DNA of 38,297 nucleotides from contig JAOQAF010000016.1 of the NCBI GenBank assembly GCA_025963735.1, forward strand, positions 1 to 38,297, in the 5' to 3' direction. The translations under genes and the position numbers were made by a program. The notes beneath the pieces were generated by a model. That model was not told the origin of the DNA and did no database searches. It worked only from the letters and a program-made list of their open reading frames with translations. This stretch comes from Bacteroidota bacterium. GTDB lineage: Bacteria > Bacteroidota > Bacteroidia > B-17B0 > Aurantibacillaceae. Shown here in pieces: positions 2,891-35,160 of the stretch (positions are counted from its first letter, which is position 1; the number at the start of each line of letters is the position of its first letter).

Positions 2891-5800
2891 ATGATTACCT
2901 CCGAAAACATATTAATTAACAAACTGGATGAATTTATCCGGAAGTATTATAAAAATCAATTAATTAAGGGGGTCATTTATTCAAGCGGCATTTTACTTGC
3001 TGCCTTTTTAAGTTTAATTCTCCTTGAGTATTTTGGCGAATTAAGTATTACCCTGCGAACTATTCTTTTTTTTACTTTTTTAATAGCAACCCTTGTTGTT
3101 TTAGGAAATTACATTGCCGTGCCATTGCTTAAATTAAATAAGATCGGTAAAATCATTTCGCACAAGCAGGCGGCCGGCATTATAGGAAATCATTTTTCAA
3201 ACGTACAGGATAAATTATTGAATGTTCTTCAGCTGCAAAGTAACCAGGCCTTGCATGGTTCCAGCGATCTTCTGGTGGCAAGCATCAACCAGAAAATAAC
3301 GGAATTAAAACCTGTTCCATTTGTTTCGGCTATTAATTTAAACGAAAATAAAAAACATCTTAAATATACGTTACCCGTTATTTTTTTATTCATGGGTATT
3401 TATTTAATCTGGCCCCAGATCATTCATAAAAGCACCACACGCTTGTTTCATTATCAAACATATTATGAAAAAGAAATGCCTTTTAAGTTCAATATTCTTA
3501 ATAGTAATCTGCAAGCCTTGCAAACACAAGACTTTAAGCTCGAAGTAAAAATTACCGGTGAGCAGATTCCAAATGAAGTGTTTATTAATATCAAGGGTAT
3601 TGAATATAAACTTGAGAAGGAAAATAATATCACTTTTAATTATACATTTAAAAACCTGCAGGCTAACACCGGTTTTCAATTAGGCGCTGCGGGTTTTAAT
3701 TCAAAAGAATACACTCTGGAAGTTTTACCCAAGCCCTCTTTACTGCAATTTAACCTGCAGTTAATCTATCCGGCTTATCTTCACAAGGCTAACGAAAGTC
3801 TCAGTAACAGCGGTGACCTTCAGATCCCGGCAGGTACAAAAGTAAACTGGACATTTAATACAAGAAACACTGATAAGCTGCAACTTAGATTTAGCGATAG
3901 CCTGGCACATCCATCAAAAAACAATGAGAATCAGTTTAACTTTTCGCGCAGTTTTTTAAACAGTAACAATTACACCATAAAAGCCTCCAACCAATTCATA
4001 AAAATCGCCCCCGACTCCGTTAATTACAGTATTAATGTTATTCCCGACCAGTATCCTTCCATCGATGTAAGTGAAAACACTGATTCATTAAACATCAAAA
4101 ACCTTTATTTCAGCGGGCAGATTAAAGATGATTATGGCTTTAATCATCTTAATTTTTTTTATAAAAAATTCAGCATTGATTCTACCGGAAAAACAAATGA
4201 AAGCACTGGAAGTTTCCCAATAGCAATTAAACGCGACCAAATCTCACAACCTTATTTTTATTATCTCGACGCCTCTAAATTTAATTTACAACCGGGCGAT
4301 AAAATAGAATACTTTTTTGAGGTGTTTGATAACGACGGAGTTAATGGTTCAAAGTCGGCCAAAACACAGCTCATGACCTTTAAGGCACCTACATTAGACG
4401 AAATAAATGAAAATACCTCAAAAAATAATTCCGAAATAAAACAAGATCTGGAGGAAAGCATTAAAAAAGCAAAACAGCTTCAAAAAGACGTAAATGAACT
4501 TTCAAAAAAAATAACAGATAAAAAACAATTGGGTTACGAAGAAAAAAAGAAAATTGAGGATGTAATTAAAAAACAAAACGAGCTGAAAAATAAAATTGAA
4601 GAAATTAAACAGGAAAATCAATTGAACAACCAGCAGCAAAATGAATTTACCCAAAATGATGAAAGCCTGCTCGAAAAACAAAAACAGCTGGAACAATTAT
4701 TTGAAAATGTAATGACTCCGGAAATGGAAAAATTATTTGACGAGCTTAATAAAATGCTGGATAAGTTGGATAAAAATGAAGTTCAGCAAAAGCTTGAAGA
4801 GATGAAACTTTCTAATAAGGATATTGAAAAAGAACTCGACCGAAACCTTGAAGCCTTCAAACAACTGGAAGTGCAGCAAAAGATGCAGCAGGCTATAGAT
4901 AAACTCGACGAACTTAAAAAGAAAGAAGATGATTTAAATAAGGAAACTGAAAATAAAAAAGAAGACAAGGACACTAAGAATAAGGACAATAAAAACAAAG
5001 ACGAAAAAAGCAAAGAGCTTGAAAAAAAGCAGGATGATATTAAAAAAGATTTTGAAAATTTAAAGGAAGAACTAAAAGAACTCGAGAAAAAAAACAGCGA
5101 ACTGGAAGAGCCAAACGCTTTGCCTAAAAACGAACAAAAGCAAAAAGAAATTGAAAAAGAAATGCAAAACAGTTCTGAGCAACTGAATAAGAATAATAAA
5201 AAAGAAGCTTCAAAATCTCAGAAAAGTGCAAGTCAGAAAATGCAGGAAATGAAGGAAGAAATGGAGCAGTCTATGGAATCTTCGGAACAGCAACAGGAAG
5301 AAGAAAACGCGCAGGCTTTGAGGCAAATTCTCGAAAACCTTCTTAATCTTTCTTTCGCTCAGGAAGAACTTATTAAACAATTGCCCAAAACACGTATTGA
5401 CAATCCACTTTATATTAAAATTCCGCAGGAACAAAACAAGCTAAAAGACGACAGTAAAATTATTGAAGATAGTTTATTGGCTTTAAGTAAGCGCGCTCCT
5501 AAAATAAGTGCCATGGTTAACCGCGAAATAAGTGCCATTAACATGAACATGGATAAAACGGTTAAATCCCTTGCGGAAAGAAATACCGGCGATGCCACCA
5601 TGCGAATGCAAAGCACAATGACATCCGTTAATAACCTGGCCCTTCTACTTAACGAAGCGTTGGAGCAAATGCAGCAACAAATGAAACAACAGCAGCAGCA
5701 AAGCTCTAAACCAGGCAGCGGAAAGTGTAAGAAACCCGGCAGCGGATCCGGGCAAAAGCCGTCTCAAAGTCCGGCCATGCCTAACATGCGTAAATTACAG

Positions 5801-15436: not shown

Positions 15437-15805
15437 TTAGTTTTTAGAAGTTAGATTTTTTCTTGCGGTTTTCAATGAAGATGTGAAAATAGCAGTAAGT
15501 TCATCACTCTCTTTATGTAATTTTTTTAATTTATTAATGTCTAATTTTTCATATGATTTCTCAATAATTTCAAACCAACACATCGACTCATCTGCTTCTT
15601 CGAGTACAATATTTAGCTTGGAAATAAACTCCGCAGACGATCTTCCGCGTAAAGAAGCTCTGTAATTTGCAGCTACAGAGGTTGCAGATTTAAGGATCTG
15701 GTAAGAAATTAAATCATTTGCCTTAGATTTAGGTAAAGTATTAACAAAACCGATCGTCTCAATCGCAAATCTTTTTGTTCTACTTTTTAAATCTTCTTTA
15801 TTCAC
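15437..15805 (-). CDS. four-helix bundle protein (23S rRNA intervening-sequence-protein family)
   Basis: 122 aa; LISYQILKSATSVAANYRASLRGRSSAEFISKLNIVLEEADESMCWFEII. Confidence 0.9.
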   Translation of the reverse strand: MNKEDLKSRTKRFAIETIGFVNTLPKSKANDLISYQILKSATSVAANYRASLRGRSSAEFISKLNIVLEEADESMCWFEIIEKSYEKLDINKLKKLHKESDELTAIFTSSLKTARKNLTSKN

Positions 15806-18150: not shown

Positions 18151-19134
18151 TTATGGACGTTTATCGAATGGAATAAAACCTAAAGCTTTTTGTTCTTTTA
18201 ATACACGGGTTTTCAATTCATTTAAATGCTGATAATGATTTTGAGAAATAACCGAACTCCTGTGAATAGGCGATGGACCTTCAATAACCCAATCGCTTTT
18301 TTTCTTATGATCATAACGGCAGGTATTGCAAATAAATTCTTCCACCTCATCCCACTGATCTTTACGCGCAGTAACGCGTACAACTTCTTCACCTTTCAAC
18401 CACACGCGGGTTTTACCGCAACACTTCTCGCAATTGCGATGCGCGTCAACCGGCTTTGTAAACCATACACGCTGCTTAAAACGGAAAGTTTTATCTGTTA
18501 ATGCACCAACAGGACAAACATCGATAACATTGCCGCTAAAATCATTATCCACAATTTTTTCAATGTAAGTGGAAATCTCTGAAGCATCACCCCTGTGCAT
18601 AACACCATGTACGCGACCGTCGGTTATTTGCTCGGCGGTTTTAACGCAGCGGTAACACAAGATGCAACGTGTCATGTGCAATTTAATTTTATCGCCGATA
18701 TCAATCATTTCATATTCACGGCGCTTAAATTCGTAGCGCGTTTTAGAAGAACCGTTTTCAAAACCAAGATCCTGTAATTTACACTCACCGGCCTGATCGC
18801 ACACGGGGCAATCCAAAGGATGATTGATCAATAAAAATTCAACAACACCTTTACGCGCCTCTATAATTTCAGGAGAAGTAAAATTCTGCACAACCATTCC
18901 GTCCATAACCTCTGTACGGCAACTGGCCACCGGTTTTGGCATTGGTGTGGGGTTGGCGGTACTGCCCGCAGTAACTTTTACGATACAGGTCCGGCAATAA
19001 CCACCGCTGGTTTTTAATTTTGTATAATAACACATGGCAGGGGGAGCTACCTCCGGGCCTATCATACGGGCGGCCTGCAGGATGGTGGTTCCCTTTGGCA
19101 CGTCTATTTCTATTCCGTCTATTGTTACTTTCAT
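18151..19134 (-). CDS. nuoG: short NuoG-type 2Fe-2S/4Fe-4S protein lacking the molybdopterin domain
   Basis: 327 aa; GGYCRTC, HPLDCPVCDQAGECKLQD, CILCYRCVK, DVCPVGAL; ends shortly after the CEKCC...CNTC segment. Confidence 0.9.
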   Translation of the reverse strand: MKVTIDGIEIDVPKGTTILQAARMIGPEVAPPAMCYYTKLKTSGGYCRTCIVKVTAGSTANPTPMPKPVASCRTEVMDGMVVQNFTSPEIIEARKGVVEFLLINHPLDCPVCDQAGECKLQDLGFENGSSKTRYEFKRREYEMIDIGDKIKLHMTRCILCYRCVKTAEQITDGRVHGVMHRGDASEISTYIEKIVDNDFSGNVIDVCPVGALTDKTFRFKQRVWFTKPVDAHRNCEKCCGKTRVWLKGEEVVRVTARKDQWDEVEEFICNTCRYDHKKKSDWVIEGPSPIHRSSVISQNHYQHLNELKTRVLKEQKALGFIPFDKRP

Positions 19135-19478
19135 CTATTTGTTCAATATTTTATTAATGTCTTCTTTTAATTCCGGCGTCCGCTTTACTATAAACAACCA
19201 CATTTGTTCATTATCAACTGTATCATATGCATGCGCTAAAAAATTTCGCAGTCCGATTATACTTTCTCTATTTCTAATATTCAAAATTATTTCCGGACTT
19301 AACGTGGTAATTTTTTTAATTATTTCACCGATTATTAAAAAGTTTCGTTCACTTGTTCTTTTAAAATAAAAATTACCTTCAAATCCTGTTATATCCTTTG
19401 CATCTTTTGTACCTGCTCAATCTCTGTAATATGGCGCAAAATATCTTTTAAGTAATTATGTACTAACTCTTCACCCAT
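19135..19478 (-). pseudogene. HEPN-domain (HepT/DUF86-like) toxin, apparent single frameshift
   Basis: My minus-strand translation: MGEELVHNYLKDILRHITEIEQVQK | frame change at an A4 run (plus strand 19405-19408) | DAKDITGFEGNFYFKRTSERNFLIIGEIIKKITTLSPEIILNIRNRESIIGLRNFLAHAYDTVDNEQMWLFIVKRTPELKEDINKILNK*; Rx4HxY motif RNFLAHAY; stop abuts nuoG ATG. Confidence 0.8.
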
Positions 19479-19779
19479 AAATTAACACCTTATCTTTTTC
19501 AATTTGCTCTTTTATACTGGATTGAAGTGCTTTTTTATAAAAAAGTAAATCTATTGGTTTTTTGAACGCGTAAATCAGCTCTTCTTTAAACCAAAAATAA
19601 TTTTGAGTAAATTCATTATTGTCCTCAGGCTTTTCAAAATCAACTAATAAATCAATATCACTATAAAATTGATAATTCTCTCGCGCAGCAGAACCAAACA
19701 CATACAACTCCTTAACATGATGCTTTTGGCATATGCTTTTTATTTGGGAGAGATTGTTAGTTATGATTGGGGCGAGCAT
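19471..19779 (-). CDS. MNT-type minimal nucleotidyltransferase (MntA-like antitoxin)
   Basis: 102 aa; GSAARENYQFYSDID = GSx10DxD motif; overlaps HEPN start by 8 nt. Confidence 0.88.
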   Translation of the reverse strand: MLAPIITNNLSQIKSICQKHHVKELYVFGSAARENYQFYSDIDLLVDFEKPEDNNEFTQNYFWFKEELIYAFKKPIDLLFYKKALQSSIKEQIEKDKVLIYG

Positions 19780-20499: not shown

Positions 20500-21837
20500 C
20501 TACGCCACTATTTTATTTAACCGGTTATAATGACTCACGTCTACAAACTTTTTACTGCGCGCCACTTCCAGAAATTCATTTTTAAAATGTCTGATAGCCG
20601 CTGCCACAGGCCATGCTGCAGCTTCTCCTAATGGACAAATTGTTTTTCCTTCTATTTTACTTTGAATATCCCACAACAATTCAACATCGCTTTCAACTGC
20701 GCTACCATTTAAAAATTTCTTTAATATTTTTTCCATCCAACCTGTTCCTTCGCGGCATGGAGAACATTGTCCGCATGATTCGTGATGATAAAAACGGGTA
20801 AATGTAAACAGATTCTTTACAATGCTAGTATCTTCATCCATAACAATAAACCCTCCCGAACCAAGCATGGTTCCTGTTTGAAAACCTCCATCCCCTAAAC
20901 TTTCGTAGCTCATTAAACGTGGTTCGCCTTTAGCGGTTTTTAAAATCAGTTCAGTTGGAAGAATAGGAACGGAAGAACCTCCGGCCACAACAGCCTTCAT
21001 TTTTTTTCCATTACGAATGCCGCCGCAATATTCTTCGCTGTATATAAATTCTTCAACAGGTAATCCTAATTCAATTTCATAAACACCCGGTTTATTAATA
21101 TGACCGGAGGCTGAAATTAGTTTTGTTCCCGTAGATTTTCCTATTCCAATTTTAGCATATTCTTCCCCGCCCATATTTATAATAGGACAAACTGCAGCAA
21201 TGGTTTCCACATTATTTACAACAGTTGGACAACCCCATAAACCAGCCACTGCGGGAAAAGGAGGTTTAATGCGGGGATTGCCCCGTTTACCTTCCAATGA
21301 TTCAAGCAACGCCGTTTCTTCGCCGCAAATATACGCTCCGCCCCCAACCTGTACATAACAGTCGTGAGAGAAATCAGTACCTAAAATATTTTTACCAAGC
21401 CAACCGGCAGCGTAAGCTTCTGCAATCGCTTTTTCAACAATTCGCGCTACATAAAAGTATTCTCCGCGTATATAGATGTAAGACGTTTTTGCACCTAAAG
21501 CATAAGAAGAAGTTATCATTCCTTCAATTAAGGCGTGAGGTATTACCTCCATCAGATAACGGTCTTTGAATGTACCGGGCTCAGATTCATCGGCATTACA
21601 CACTAAATAACGCGCAACACCTTCAGGCTTTGCCAAAAAACTCCATTTTAACCCTGTCGGAAATCCTGCTCCACCACGCCCGCGTAATCCCGATTTTTTA
21701 ACTTCGTCCGTCACCTGGTCCGGTGTCATGGTTTTTAATGCTTTTTCAACTGAAGCATAACCGCCATGTTCACGATAAACATCCAGTGTATGAATGTTGG
21801 GTACTTTATCATTATGTATTAAAAGTTTTCTTCCCAT
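20500..21837 (-). CDS. nuoF: NADH-quinone oxidoreductase subunit F
   Basis: 445 aa; GRGGAGFPTGLKWSF, GGGAYICGEETALLESLEGKRG, CGQCSPCREGTGW. Confidence 0.97.
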   Translation of the reverse strand: MGRKLLIHNDKVPNIHTLDVYREHGGYASVEKALKTMTPDQVTDEVKKSGLRGRGGAGFPTGLKWSFLAKPEGVARYLVCNADESEPGTFKDRYLMEVIPHALIEGMITSSYALGAKTSYIYIRGEYFYVARIVEKAIAEAYAAGWLGKNILGTDFSHDCYVQVGGGAYICGEETALLESLEGKRGNPRIKPPFPAVAGLWGCPTVVNNVETIAAVCPIINMGGEEYAKIGIGKSTGTKLISASGHINKPGVYEIELGLPVEEFIYSEEYCGGIRNGKKMKAVVAGGSSVPILPTELILKTAKGEPRLMSYESLGDGGFQTGTMLGSGGFIVMDEDTSIVKNLFTFTRFYHHESCGQCSPCREGTGWMEKILKKFLNGSAVESDVELLWDIQSKIEGKTICPLGEAAAWPVAAAIRHFKNEFLEVARSKKFVDVSHYNRLNKIVA

Positions 21838-30522: not shown

Positions 30523-33243
30523 ATGGATAAATTTTCTTATTTAGGAAACAGCGATGTGAACGCGATCGAAGAGCTTTTTGTACAATATCAAAAAGACCCC
30601 AATGCAGTTGATAAAACATGGCAGGATTTTTTTAAAGGTTTTGAATTTGCACAAACAGATTTTACTTCTTCCGGCGGTGTTATTCCCGAAAATGTCAGTA
30701 AAGAGTTTAAAGTAATCAGCCTTATAACAGGATACCGTCAGCGCGGCCACCTCTTCACTAAAACAAATCCTGTTCGTCAGCGTCGTACCTACGATCCTAC
30801 CTTGGCATTAGAAAATTTCGGACTGTCGGAAAAAGATCTTGACCTTACTTTTCATGCCGGAAACGAAATTGGAATAGGACCTGCAAAATTAAAAGCAATC
30901 ATTGATCATCTTGAGCAAACCTATTGTCAGAGTATTGGTGTGGAATATTTATATGTGCGCGAACCCAAAGTTGTAAAGTGGCTTCAGGAGCGAATGGAAA
31001 AAAACCGCAACACTCCTTCCTTTACCAAGGAGGAGAAAAAAACCATTCTTAAAAAATTAACACAGGCTGTAGTTTTTGAAAGTTACCTCCATACAAAATT
31101 TGTTGGCCAGAAACGTTTTTCACTTGAAGGAGGAGAAGCGGTAATACCCGCTATTAATGCTTTAATGGAACATGGAGCTAATTTAGGAATTCAGGATTAT
31201 GTAATTGGAATGGCTCACCGCGGAAGATTAAATGTGCTCACCAACATCATGAACAAAACATACAAGGATGTGTTCACTGAGTTTGAAGGCAGGCCAAGTG
31301 AGGATTCGCTTTTTGATGGTGATGTAAAATACCACATGGGTTATTCATCCGACCAGCTAAGTGACGGAGGAAAAAATGTTCACATAAGTTTAACTCCAAA
31401 CCCTTCTCATCTCGAAACCTCTGCTTCCGTGGTACAGGGTATTGTACGCGCTAAAATAGATAACCGTCATAACGGTGATAATTCAAAAGCTTGTCCTGTT
31501 ATTTTGCATGGCGATGCCGCTATCGCCGGACAGGGACTTGTATATGAGCTGGTTCAAATGAGTCAGCTTGACGGTTTTAAAACGGGTGGCACGGTGCATT
31601 ACGTTATTAATAACCAGGTTGGTTTTACAACTAATTTTACCGATGGGCGTTCTTCCACTTATTGCACCGATGTTGCCAAAGTGGTGTTAAGTCCGGTGTT
31701 TCACGTTAACGGTGATGATGTGGAAGCTTTGTGTTTCATTTCAAAATTAGCGATGGAATTCCGTCAAACATTTCATCGCGATGTTTTTGTGGATGTTTTA
31801 TGTTATCGCAAATATGGTCACAACGAAGGAGATGAGCCGCGCTTTACCCAGCCGCTTTTATACAAAGCTATTGCAGCCCATGCGAATCCAAAAGACATAT
31901 ATGTAAAGAAGCTTGAGGCTGAACAGCCCGACCTTGCCGCAGAAGCAAAAGAAATTGAAAATACATTTAAAGCCGAGCTCGACAGTAATTTAGACGCGGC
32001 TAAGAAAACCGATAAAGCCAAGATCACTTCGTTTTTAGAAGGAACCTGGAAAGGTGTTAAAATGGCTTCGGACAAAGATTTTGAAGAGTCGCCGAAAACA
32101 GCGGTTGATGAAAAATTATTTTTAGAATTAGCAAAGCAAACCACTGAACTTCCAAAGGACAAAAAATTCTTCAATAAAATTCAGAAGGTATTTGACGACC
32201 GCAAAGCCATGATCACCAATGATAATTACGATTGGGCCATGGGAGAGTTACTGGCATATGCAACGCTGATGAAAGAGGGTTTCCCGGTGCGGTTTAGCGG
32301 ACAGGATGTAGAACGCGGAACTTTCTCCCACCGTCATGCCATTGTAAAGCTGGAAGACAGTGAAGAAGAATATACACCACTTAACAGCATTGATTCAAAA
32401 GCCAAACTAAGCATTTACAATTCGTTATTAAGCGAATACGGCGTATTAGGTTTTGAATACGGATATGCCTTTGCGGCGCCCAACACGCTTACTATATGGG
32501 AAGCGCAGTTCGGAGATTTTTTCAATGGCGCGCAAATTATCATTGATCAATACCTTACTTCCGCTGAATACAAATGGAGGCGCATGAACGGATTGGTTGT
32601 TTTACTTCCTCACGGTTATGAGGGACAGGGGCCTGAACACTCCAGCGCCCGTATGGAACGCTTCCTTCAGGCCTGCGCTGAAAATAACATGCAGATTGTG
32701 AACACGACCACACCCGCGCAGCAATTTCACGTAATACGCAGGCAGTTAAAAAGAGACTTCCGCAAACCGTTAGTATGTTTCACTCCTAAAAAATTATTGC
32801 GGTATCCAAGTTGTGTGAGCAAATTGGCAGACTTTACTAAAACTAATTTCCAGGAAGTGTTGGATGATACCATCGATGCGAAAAAAATAACACGTATTGG
32901 TTTCTGTTCAGGTAAAGTATATTACGATTTAATTGAACGACGTGAAAAAGAAGGCGCGGAGGATATCGCTTTCATTCGCCTTGAACAATTATATCCCTTC
33001 CCGCAAAAACAAGTGGACGCCATTGTAAAAAAATACAATAAGGTTAAAGAATATTTATTCATTCAGGAAGAACCCGAAAACATGGGGCCATGGAGGTTTG
33101 CAGACAACAACATGCGTTCTCTTAATTTGAAGTATATTGGCAGAGACGCCGCTGCAAGTCCGGCAACAGGATTTGCCAAACGCCACGCAGCTGAAAATGA
33201 AGAAATAATGACCAGCATTTTCACCAAAATTTTAGTGAAATAG
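30523..33243 (+). CDS. sucA: 2-oxoglutarate dehydrogenase E1 component
   Basis: 906 aa; MAHRGRLNVLTNIMNK, HGDAAIAGQGLVYE, PHGYEGQGPEHSSARMERFLQ. Confidence 0.97.
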   Translation: MDKFSYLGNSDVNAIEELFVQYQKDPNAVDKTWQDFFKGFEFAQTDFTSSGGVIPENVSKEFKVISLITGYRQRGHLFTKTNPVRQRRTYDPTLALENFGLSEKDLDLTFHAGNEIGIGPAKLKAIIDHLEQTYCQSIGVEYLYVREPKVVKWLQERMEKNRNTPSFTKEEKKTILKKLTQAVVFESYLHTKFVGQKRFSLEGGEAVIPAINALMEHGANLGIQDYVIGMAHRGRLNVLTNIMNKTYKDVFTEFEGRPSEDSLFDGDVKYHMGYSSDQLSDGGKNVHISLTPNPSHLETSASVVQGIVRAKIDNRHNGDNSKACPVILHGDAAIAGQGLVYELVQMSQLDGFKTGGTVHYVINNQVGFTTNFTDGRSSTYCTDVAKVVLSPVFHVNGDDVEALCFISKLAMEFRQTFHRDVFVDVLCYRKYGHNEGDEPRFTQPLLYKAIAAHANPKDIYVKKLEAEQPDLAAEAKEIENTFKAELDSNLDAAKKTDKAKITSFLEGTWKGVKMASDKDFEESPKTAVDEKLFLELAKQTTELPKDKKFFNKIQKVFDDRKAMITNDNYDWAMGELLAYATLMKEGFPVRFSGQDVERGTFSHRHAIVKLEDSEEEYTPLNSIDSKAKLSIYNSLLSEYGVLGFEYGYAFAAPNTLTIWEAQFGDFFNGAQIIIDQYLTSAEYKWRRMNGLVVLLPHGYEGQGPEHSSARMERFLQACAENNMQIVNTTTPAQQFHVIRRQLKRDFRKPLVCFTPKKLLRYPSCVSKLADFTKTNFQEVLDDTIDAKKITRIGFCSGKVYYDLIERREKEGAEDIAFIRLEQLYPFPQKQVDAIVKKYNKVKEYLFIQEEPENMGPWRFADNNMRSLNLKYIGRDAAASPATGFAKRHAAENEEIMTSIFTKILVK

Positions 33244-33551
33244 TGCTCAGCAAAGAAGAAGAAAATATTATTATTGACACATTAAAGCCCTTTAATCCAA
33301 CTTTTATTGGACTATTTGGGTCCTATGCGCGAAACGAAGAAACCGAAACAAGCGACATTGACATTTTGTATGACTTTGAAAACAAATATTCGCTCTTCGA
33401 TTTAATTGAACTTAAAGAGCTGCTGTATGAGAGATTAAATAAAAAAGTAGATTTAGTTTCATTGAAATATATTAAACCTTACTTTAAAAAATACATTTTA
33501 GACGATTTAGTCTACCTGTTAAATGAAAAAAACAAACAAGTTATATCTTGA
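33243..33551 (+). CDS. MNT-type minimal nucleotidyltransferase (MntA-like antitoxin)
   Basis: 102 aa; GSYARNEETETSDID = GSx10DxD; GTG start overlaps sucA TAG (TAGTG). Confidence 0.9.
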   Translation: MLSKEEENIIIDTLKPFNPTFIGLFGSYARNEETETSDIDILYDFENKYSLFDLIELKELLYERLNKKVDLVSLKYIKPYFKKYILDDLVYLLNEKNKQVIS

Positions 33552-33876
33552 ACAATTTTTAGAACGCATTGAAAGGATTGAGCGGATTATTTCTGAAACA
33601 AATAGAGAAGACTTTTATTCTTCCTATATTAATCAAGACGCCTTAATCTATAACCTGGAAGTGCTCGGAGAAATTAGCAAAAGATTTAGCGAGTATTATA
33701 AAGCAAATGTTGATGAAATACCCTGGCACAAAATTCAAGGGATGAGAAACAGACTTATCCATGACTATGACGGCATCGATTTGGAAATTGTTTGGCAAGC
33801 CGCTAGTGAGTTCGTTCCCTCACTAAAAACAATTATTGAACATCAAATTAAAGTAATAGACACAACCAAATATTAA
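33523..33876 (+). CDS. HepT-like HEPN ribonuclease toxin (DUF86)
   Basis: 117 aa; IYNLEVLGEISKRF, MRNRLIHDYDGID containing Rx4HxY; overlaps MNT by 29 nt. Confidence 0.9.
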   Translation: MKKTNKLYLEQFLERIERIERIISETNREDFYSSYINQDALIYNLEVLGEISKRFSEYYKANVDEIPWHKIQGMRNRLIHDYDGIDLEIVWQAASEFVPSLKTIIEHQIKVIDTTKY

Positions 33877-33897: not shown

Positions 33898-35160
33898 ATG
33901 GCAATAGTAGAATTAAAAGTACCAAGTCCGGGAGAATCAATTACAGAAGTAGTGATAGCCCGCTGGATCAAAAATACAGGCGACGTGGTTGAAAAAGATG
34001 AGGTATTGGCTGAGATCGATTCCGACAAAGCTACTTTAACACTAAATGCTGAAGAAGCCGGTAAAATTGAGGTGCTTGCCGCCGAAGGTGATACTGTAAA
34101 GGTAGGACAGGTGGTTGTAAAAATTGACACCTCTGTGAAACCGGAAGCGAAAAAAGAAACGCCAAAAGCCGAAGTGAAGCAGGAAGCGAAAAAAGAAGAG
34201 TCTAAAAAAGAAAGCAAGCAGGAAGTTGCTGTAACCAAAGAATCGGCTTCCTACGCAACGGGAACGCCAAGTGTTGCAGCTGCTAAAATAATGGCTGAAA
34301 ATAATGTTACATCTAAGCAATTAAACGGAACGGGTAAAGCGGGCCGCATTACAAAACAAGATGTGCTTGCAGCTCTGTCTAACGGTTTGCCTTCTGCCGA
34401 AAAAGCTTTAAGTAACAGCTGGCAAGGTGGAAGAGATAAAGAAAGAATTAAAATGACCTCGCTTCGTAAAGTGGTGGCAAAGCGTCTTGTAGCGGTTAAA
34501 AATGAAACGGCCATGCTTACAACTTTTAATGAAGTTGATATGAGCGCCATTTACGAAATCCGCGCTAAGTATAAAGATAAATTTAAAGAAGTTCATGGAA
34601 GCAATGTTGGCTTCATGAGTTTTTTTACGAAAGCAGTGTGCGAAGCGTTATATCATTTTCCGGCAGTTAATGGAATGATAGACGGCGAAGAAATTGTGCA
34701 CAATAAATATTGCGACATTGGTATTGCCGTTAGCGCTCCGAAAGGTTTAATGGTTCCGGTATTGCGCAACGCAGAATTGATGAGCCTTGCAGAAATTGAA
34801 AAAGGAATAAAAGAACTTGCTTTAAAAGCCCGCGATGGTAAATTAACTATTCCTGAAATGGAAGGCGGAACCTTTACCATAACCAATGGAGGCGTTTTTG
34901 GAAGCATGATGAGTACCCCCATTATTAACCCGCCGCAAAGTGCTATTTTAGGAATGCACAATGTGGTTGAAAGACCTATGGCGATTAACGGACAGGTTGT
35001 TATACGCCCCATGATGTACGTTGCTTTAAGTTACGATCACCGTATTATCGATGGACGAGAAAGTGTTGGTTTCCTTGTCAAAGTAAAAGAGATGCTTGAA
35101 AACCCTACTAGAATTTTATTCGGAGGAAAATTACCGGAAGAAATTTTGTTGGGACTTTAA
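33898..35160 (+). CDS. sucB: dihydrolipoyl succinyltransferase (2-oxoglutarate dehydrogenase E2)
   Basis: Lipoyl domain [42 protein letters not shown]. Confidence 0.96.

Follow-up and report, generated by a model that had tools for sequence, protein, structure and literature searches.

The biochemistry of HepT/MntA (HEPN-MNT, type VII) toxin-antitoxin (TA) pairs is established, for example for SO_3166/SO_3165 of Shewanella (PMC7641770). The insertion of TA pairs at core sites and the decay of their toxins are also already known. In E. coli, mazEF lies within relA-mazG, yafNO after dinB and ccd between folA and apaH, and the review describing these cases calls the insertion mechanism of core-site TAs unelucidated (PMC7167474). 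In Thermus thermophilus, an MNT-HEPN module was noted in 2009 inside the lysine biosynthesis operon of strain HB8, whereas strain HB27 lacks it (PMC2701414). Furthermore, homology-facilitated illegitimate recombination has been shown in experiments with linear DNA (PMC3240628). Our literature search found no report of a TA insertion in nuo or sucAB.

Here we describe a window of 38,297 nucleotides (the whole stretch of DNA analysed) from the genome of an uncultured Bacteroidota bacterium, which holds MNT-HEPN modules at two core-operon junctions, nuoF-nuoG and sucA-sucB (Table 1). The original prediction had placed MNT and HEPN frames between nuoF and nuoG, and re-reading the sequence showed every coordinate that it gave to be correct. 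The placement holds as well, and a gene for a TonB_C-domain protein is found at the same junction. This gene and the module make up an inserted stretch of 1365 bp on the minus strand, giving the order nuoF, TonB_C-domain gene, MNT, HEPN in two frames and nuoG. Within the nuoF-nuoG gap of the window, no promoter, terminator or Bacteroides-type promoter rose above chance, and Rfam gave no match. A plasmid collection gave only two distant MNT matches (34–40% identity), so that no plasmid vehicle was found.

Table 1. Positions of the features at the nuo and suc junctions of the window.
Feature	Position	Strand	Remarks
Four-helix gene of the 23S rRNA-intervening-sequence type	15437-15805	-	between nuoJ and nuoK; PF05635 (1.9e-11)
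nuoG	18151-19134	-	downstream flank of junction; ATG 19132-19134
HEPN/HepT remainder, other frame, 93 aa	19135-19416	-	RX4HXY as RNFLAHAY; TAG 19135-19137 directly abuts the nuoG ATG
HEPN frame-break stretch	19405-19412 (about)	-	from DNA alignment with two relatives having an unbroken HEPN frame
HEPN N-terminal part, frame 0, 29 codons then TAA	19389-19478	-	ATG 19476-19478, 8-nt overlap with the MNT stop; TAA 19389-19391; matches first 22-23 residues of intact relatives
MNT (MntA-like) antitoxin, 102 aa, intact	19471-19779	-	ATG 19779, stop 19471-19473; PF01909; GSX10DXD as GSAARENYQFYSDID
TonB_C-domain protein, secreted, 231 aa	19804-20499	-	PF03544 4.6e-15; further cargo, similar genes at nuoF-nuoG in other species
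nuoF	20500-21837	-	upstream flank of junction
sucA (2-oxoglutarate dehydrogenase E1)	30523-33243	+	named from sequence; upstream flank
MNT of the other window module	33243-33551	+	GTG start overlaps sucA stop; NCBIfam MntA_antitoxin 60.2 bits, cut-off 60
HEPN of the other window module, intact	33523-33876	+	RNRLIHDY; PF01934 4.2e-24; 21 bp before sucB
sucB (E2)	33898-35160	+	named from sequence; downstream flank

Judged by domain profiles and motifs, the nuo module is a putative type VII-like (HepT/MntA) pair. A Pfam profile search, of the kind that the original prediction had named as the test of its HEPN assignment, matches both families: the MNT scores 57.9 bits on PF01909 (E=1.4e-15, cut-off 21), and the 93-aa continuation of the HEPN scores 41.9 bits on PF01934 (E=9.7e-11, cut-off 23.5), matched from profile position 17. 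Both motifs are present, RX4HXY in the continuation frame and GSX10DXD in the MNT. On the NCBIfam HepT/MntA equivalogs (NF047751, NF047752), the nuo MNT reaches 41.1 bits, under the 60-bit cut-off of MntA_antitoxin, and the HEPN of an intact relative also falls short (23.9 against a cut-off of 60); the suc MNT passes, and the suc HEPN stays below the cut-off of 60 at 48.8. PADLOC lists the MNT as the candidate PDC-S09 only and reports no named defence system. An AlphaFold model of the intact HEPN of a relative (G076; pLDDT 92.6) has as its best PDB matches the HEPN toxins of HEPN-MNT pairs 7ae2, 7ae8, 7ae9 and 6m6u, with TMq of 0.51–0.70 and Foldseek E-values of 0.01 or weaker.

The HEPN frame of this module is indeed broken, as originally predicted: frame 0 runs into its stop, the remainder continues in another frame, and relatives carry the gene unbroken. 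Intact relatives of 114–116 residues occur at nuoF-nuoG in two related genomes. At this junction the frame is unbroken in G076, a member of another genus, and in G010, a member of the same genus, and it is complete at nuo in G076, G013, G028 and G077. One full-length relative has 116 aa and shares 82% identity across the aligned portion; an open frame of 120 aa shares 75%. Comparison with relatives places the break at the stretch given in Table 1, where it amounts to a single-base difference beside a short A run. After the break, codons unique to the host genome (G000) include 2 nonsynonymous and 11 synonymous ones; the continuation thus shows purifying selection, which implies that the break arose recently, is an artefact or is bypassed by recoding. 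In the conserved genes of the window, no other frame break was found in about 5,000–5,800 aligned residues against each of three relatives (15–20 proteins per relative), which speaks against a generally error-prone assembly, though it is no substitute for reads. An assembly error is the less likely reading, and the break, if real, would be young.

Across the family, ten modules carry a broken HEPN beside an intact MNT, against no clear case of an intact HEPN without MNT (sign test p 0.002). The lesions are frame breaks in the nuo copies of G000 and G014 (near the end in the latter) and in G008:C39, nonsense codons in G077, G018, G084, G057 and G000:C186, a catalytic His replaced by Arg in the nuo copy of G010, and a disrupted HEPN copy in G059; in G035 and G070, both genes of the module are damaged. 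Such one-sided decay fits selection against losing the antitoxin before the toxin. The original prediction had read the window copy as a neutralised TA with the antitoxin intact and the toxin dead; the broken frame and the intact MNT agree with it, and the reading gains weight from the nine other family HEPN genes broken beside an intact MNT and from the lack of another frame break in the window, while the dead toxin stays subject to the chance, weighed below, of an assembly error. The module at G000:C186 (L002), the third MNT-HEPN module of the host genome, lies beside a transposase-like ORF. Between a kdnB-like gene and kdsA in G070 (L184), a remnant is found in which a deletion has joined the MNT start to the HEPN end, a late stage of decay.

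The nuoF-nuoG junction is an insertion hot spot in the family. Most of the genomes compared are MAGs. In 38 of them nuoF and nuoG occur together on one stretch, separated by anything between −4 bp (an overlap) and 2546 bp; the gap exceeds 250 bp in 23, the other 15 lying between −4 and 144 bp. Where the whole nuo operon is available (20 genomes), gaps above 250 bp occur in 14/20 cases at nuoF-nuoG versus 15/240 at the other nuo junctions. All clear cargo at nuoF-nuoG is same-strand and comprises TonB_C, lipoprotein-like, lectin-like, ORF6N and four-helix genes as well as MNT-HEPN pairs; since it is mostly not of TA type (TonB_C, lipoproteins, ORF6N), the junction may simply tolerate insertions. 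Other nuo gaps hold mainly four-helix genes at nuoJ-nuoK, where the gap exceeds 400 bp in 7/20 relatives, most with a gene similar to the four-helix gene of the window. Between nuoE and nuoF, G010 carries a DUF2442-DUF4160 pair (L204), another possible TA-like insertion in this operon.

MNT-HEPN modules are not confined to nuoF-nuoG. They also lie between nuoK and nuoL in G076 (L180, 2155-2809), between nuoL and nuoM in another family (L324, G163), and at kdnB-kdsA, miaB-sigma-54 regulator and gmd-fcl, with these flanks named from their sequences. The junction of a miaB-like gene with a sigma-54 type regulator recurs in several families (L170, L171, L111, L325). Counted by one script on two sets that were gathered differently, modules between two close same-strand genes amount to 25/46 in the family versus 8/66 in other families. 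Across all 87 family genomes, the nine best matches of a nuo-type MNT profile all fall at nuoF-nuoG, and an order-level search added no genomes outside the family.

At sucA-sucB, the junction is filled in 12/70 resolved family genomes, the other 58 having gaps of at most 164 bp. All 12 fillings are TA-type genes of three unrelated kinds, as assigned by Pfam on representatives: MNT-HEPN in seven genomes (G000, G008, G014, G021, G035 with an orphan HEPN, G070 and G077), a PIN toxin next to a small partner gene in two (G010, G020) and a ParE-like toxin with an Unstab_antitox-like partner in three (G011, G028, G048). Versus these 12/70, none of 37 genomes from other families of the class has a TA pair at sucA-sucB (Fisher p 0.007). 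No direct repeats of 13 bp or more were found at sucAB.

The modules at the nuo site form three well-supported types, type I in G000, G010 and G076, type II in G028 and G077, and type III in G014 and G073, and every type is found in both genera g1 and g10. Within g1, NuoG is 89–97% identical, versus 32–64% for the MNTs. The flanking NuoF and NuoG follow the genera, unlike the modules: the module tree rejects monophyly of g1 (p 6e-50), and the NuoF+NuoG tree rejects the module-type groupings (p 3e-5, 5e-9 and 0.03), these AU-test p-values being indicative, as the groups were named after module identities were seen. The disagreement between the two trees thus suggests that modules have been exchanged or replaced at nuoF-nuoG.

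Two of these loci also carry footprints of nuoG. In G028, the TGA stop codon of the first HEPN overlaps ATGA in a 28-bp duplicate of the nuoG start, after which comes the second MNT. In G010, about 36 bp of nuoG start come after the second HEPN, ahead of 46 bp resembling the end of the ORF6N gene and then the real nuoG. Neither sucAB nor the nuo gap of the window shows such a stub. From these two loci, we infer that an insertion with a homologous end in nuoG and an illegitimate other end would account for the stubs.

Altogether, we read the window's nuo copy as one allele, its toxin dead, of a mobile TA cassette whose transfer relies on recombination within core-gene flanks, and give this reading a probability of roughly two in three. 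TA pairs would enter core-operon junctions in this Bacteroidota family, with the nuoF stop and nuoG start as a recurrent position, and would be read out by the host operon through presumed co-transcription. They would pass between species and genera via recombination in the conserved flanking genes, the putative vehicle; old pairs would give way to different ones, and a newly arriving pair could insert before nuoG and leave a nuoG-start stub. In decay, the toxin would usually go before the antitoxin, with the window copy a recent case; intact copies would be active toxins, and the broken one would have lost toxin function in the living cell. It is also possible, if rather doubtful, that TA modules spread like a recombination drive, in which core-gene homology converts empty or rival alleles to filled ones and the toxin punishes reversal, until a toxin mutation ends the drive and leaves an orphan antitoxin as at the window's nuoF-nuoG.

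The frame break itself allows other readings. Should it stem from a mistake in sequencing or assembly, the organism itself would have an intact HEPN frame and the junction would hold an ordinary active TA pair at a hot spot. This would suit a single-base difference beside a short A run in a 269-contig draft (97.9% completeness), followed by a frame that is stop-free and under purifying selection; it is unlikely given that the window genes are free of other breaks against three relatives, that many of the family's independent toxin lesions are of other kinds than homopolymer indels, and that the third module of the host genome also has a HEPN nonsense codon. A programmed frameshift or slippage yielding low-level full-length HEPN is hardly credible: although the continuation frame remains conserved, no canonical slippery heptamer lies in frame, and relatives, which do not conserve the site, read through without a shift. 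Phase-variable slippage, which the original prediction had entertained, is similarly unlikely, as the A run is only four long and its site is not conserved in relatives.

As to the origin of the modules, ancient vertical inheritance would have placed them at the junctions in a common ancestor, followed by divergence and many losses. Each junction having its own MNT lineage would agree with this, as seen in the nuo-type profile matches all falling at nuoF-nuoG and in suc-type MNTs at sucAB in several species. We consider it quite improbable, since the module types span genera in conflict with the NuoF/NuoG tree, the MNTs of one genus diverge far more than its NuoG, and the sucAB junction is shared by TA families with no relation to one another; these data rather point toward transfer or replacement. 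Very improbable, too, is regulatory coupling, by which TA pairs would be kept in nuo and suc to sense expression of the respiratory and TCA operons, toxin loss being an orphan-MNT specialisation. The placement on the host strand, with short gaps, inside two operons of energy metabolism and the MNT kept in every nuo-site module seen whole speak for such coupling, whereas the 58/70 genomes without a sucAB insert, the many empty nuoF-nuoG junctions, the modules in unrelated operons (kdnB-kdsA, miaB, gmd) and the non-TA cargo at nuoF-nuoG speak against it.

A single junction of the complex I operon, with interchangeable TA alleles common to genera and with stubs, offers a concrete testable mechanism, namely transfer via core-flank homology followed by one-sided toxin decay. 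It becomes available because alleles are shared across genera at the nuo junction, nuoG stubs lie beside two of them, and sucA-sucB is filled only by TA-type genes. A broken TA pair, together with interchangeable pairs in related bacteria at the same junction and in other core operons, gives a rare glimpse of the way in which these genes spread and decay.

Compared with HepT/MntA (PMC7641770), the nuo module shares PF01934 and PF01909, the MNT upstream of the HEPN, overlapping genes and both motifs, and the modelled HEPN fold appears nearest to solved HEPN toxins, albeit by weak matches; it differs in its split toxin frame, in the MNT and the intact-relative HEPN falling under the equivalog cut-offs, and in an activity that is putative. 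By the route of homology-facilitated illegitimate recombination (PMC3240628), an insert would come to lie beside a partial duplicate of its anchor gene, as in G028 and G010, but that route is known from experiments and is here deduced from two natural loci. The T. thermophilus HB8 case (PMC2701414) likewise concerns an MNT-HEPN module, placed in a biosynthetic operon of one strain only, yet is a single case with no recurrence, allele exchange or toxin decay. With the E. coli core-gene TAs (PMC7167474), our loci have in common the co-directional core genes, many empty strains, different TAs per site and module decay; in contrast, several nuo, suc and other junctions are used here within one family, three unrelated TA kinds occur at one junction, and allele types common to two genera as well as nuoG stubs hint at a mechanism. 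New here are hence the scale within one family, the several TA kinds at one junction, the sharing of alleles across genera and the nuoG stubs.
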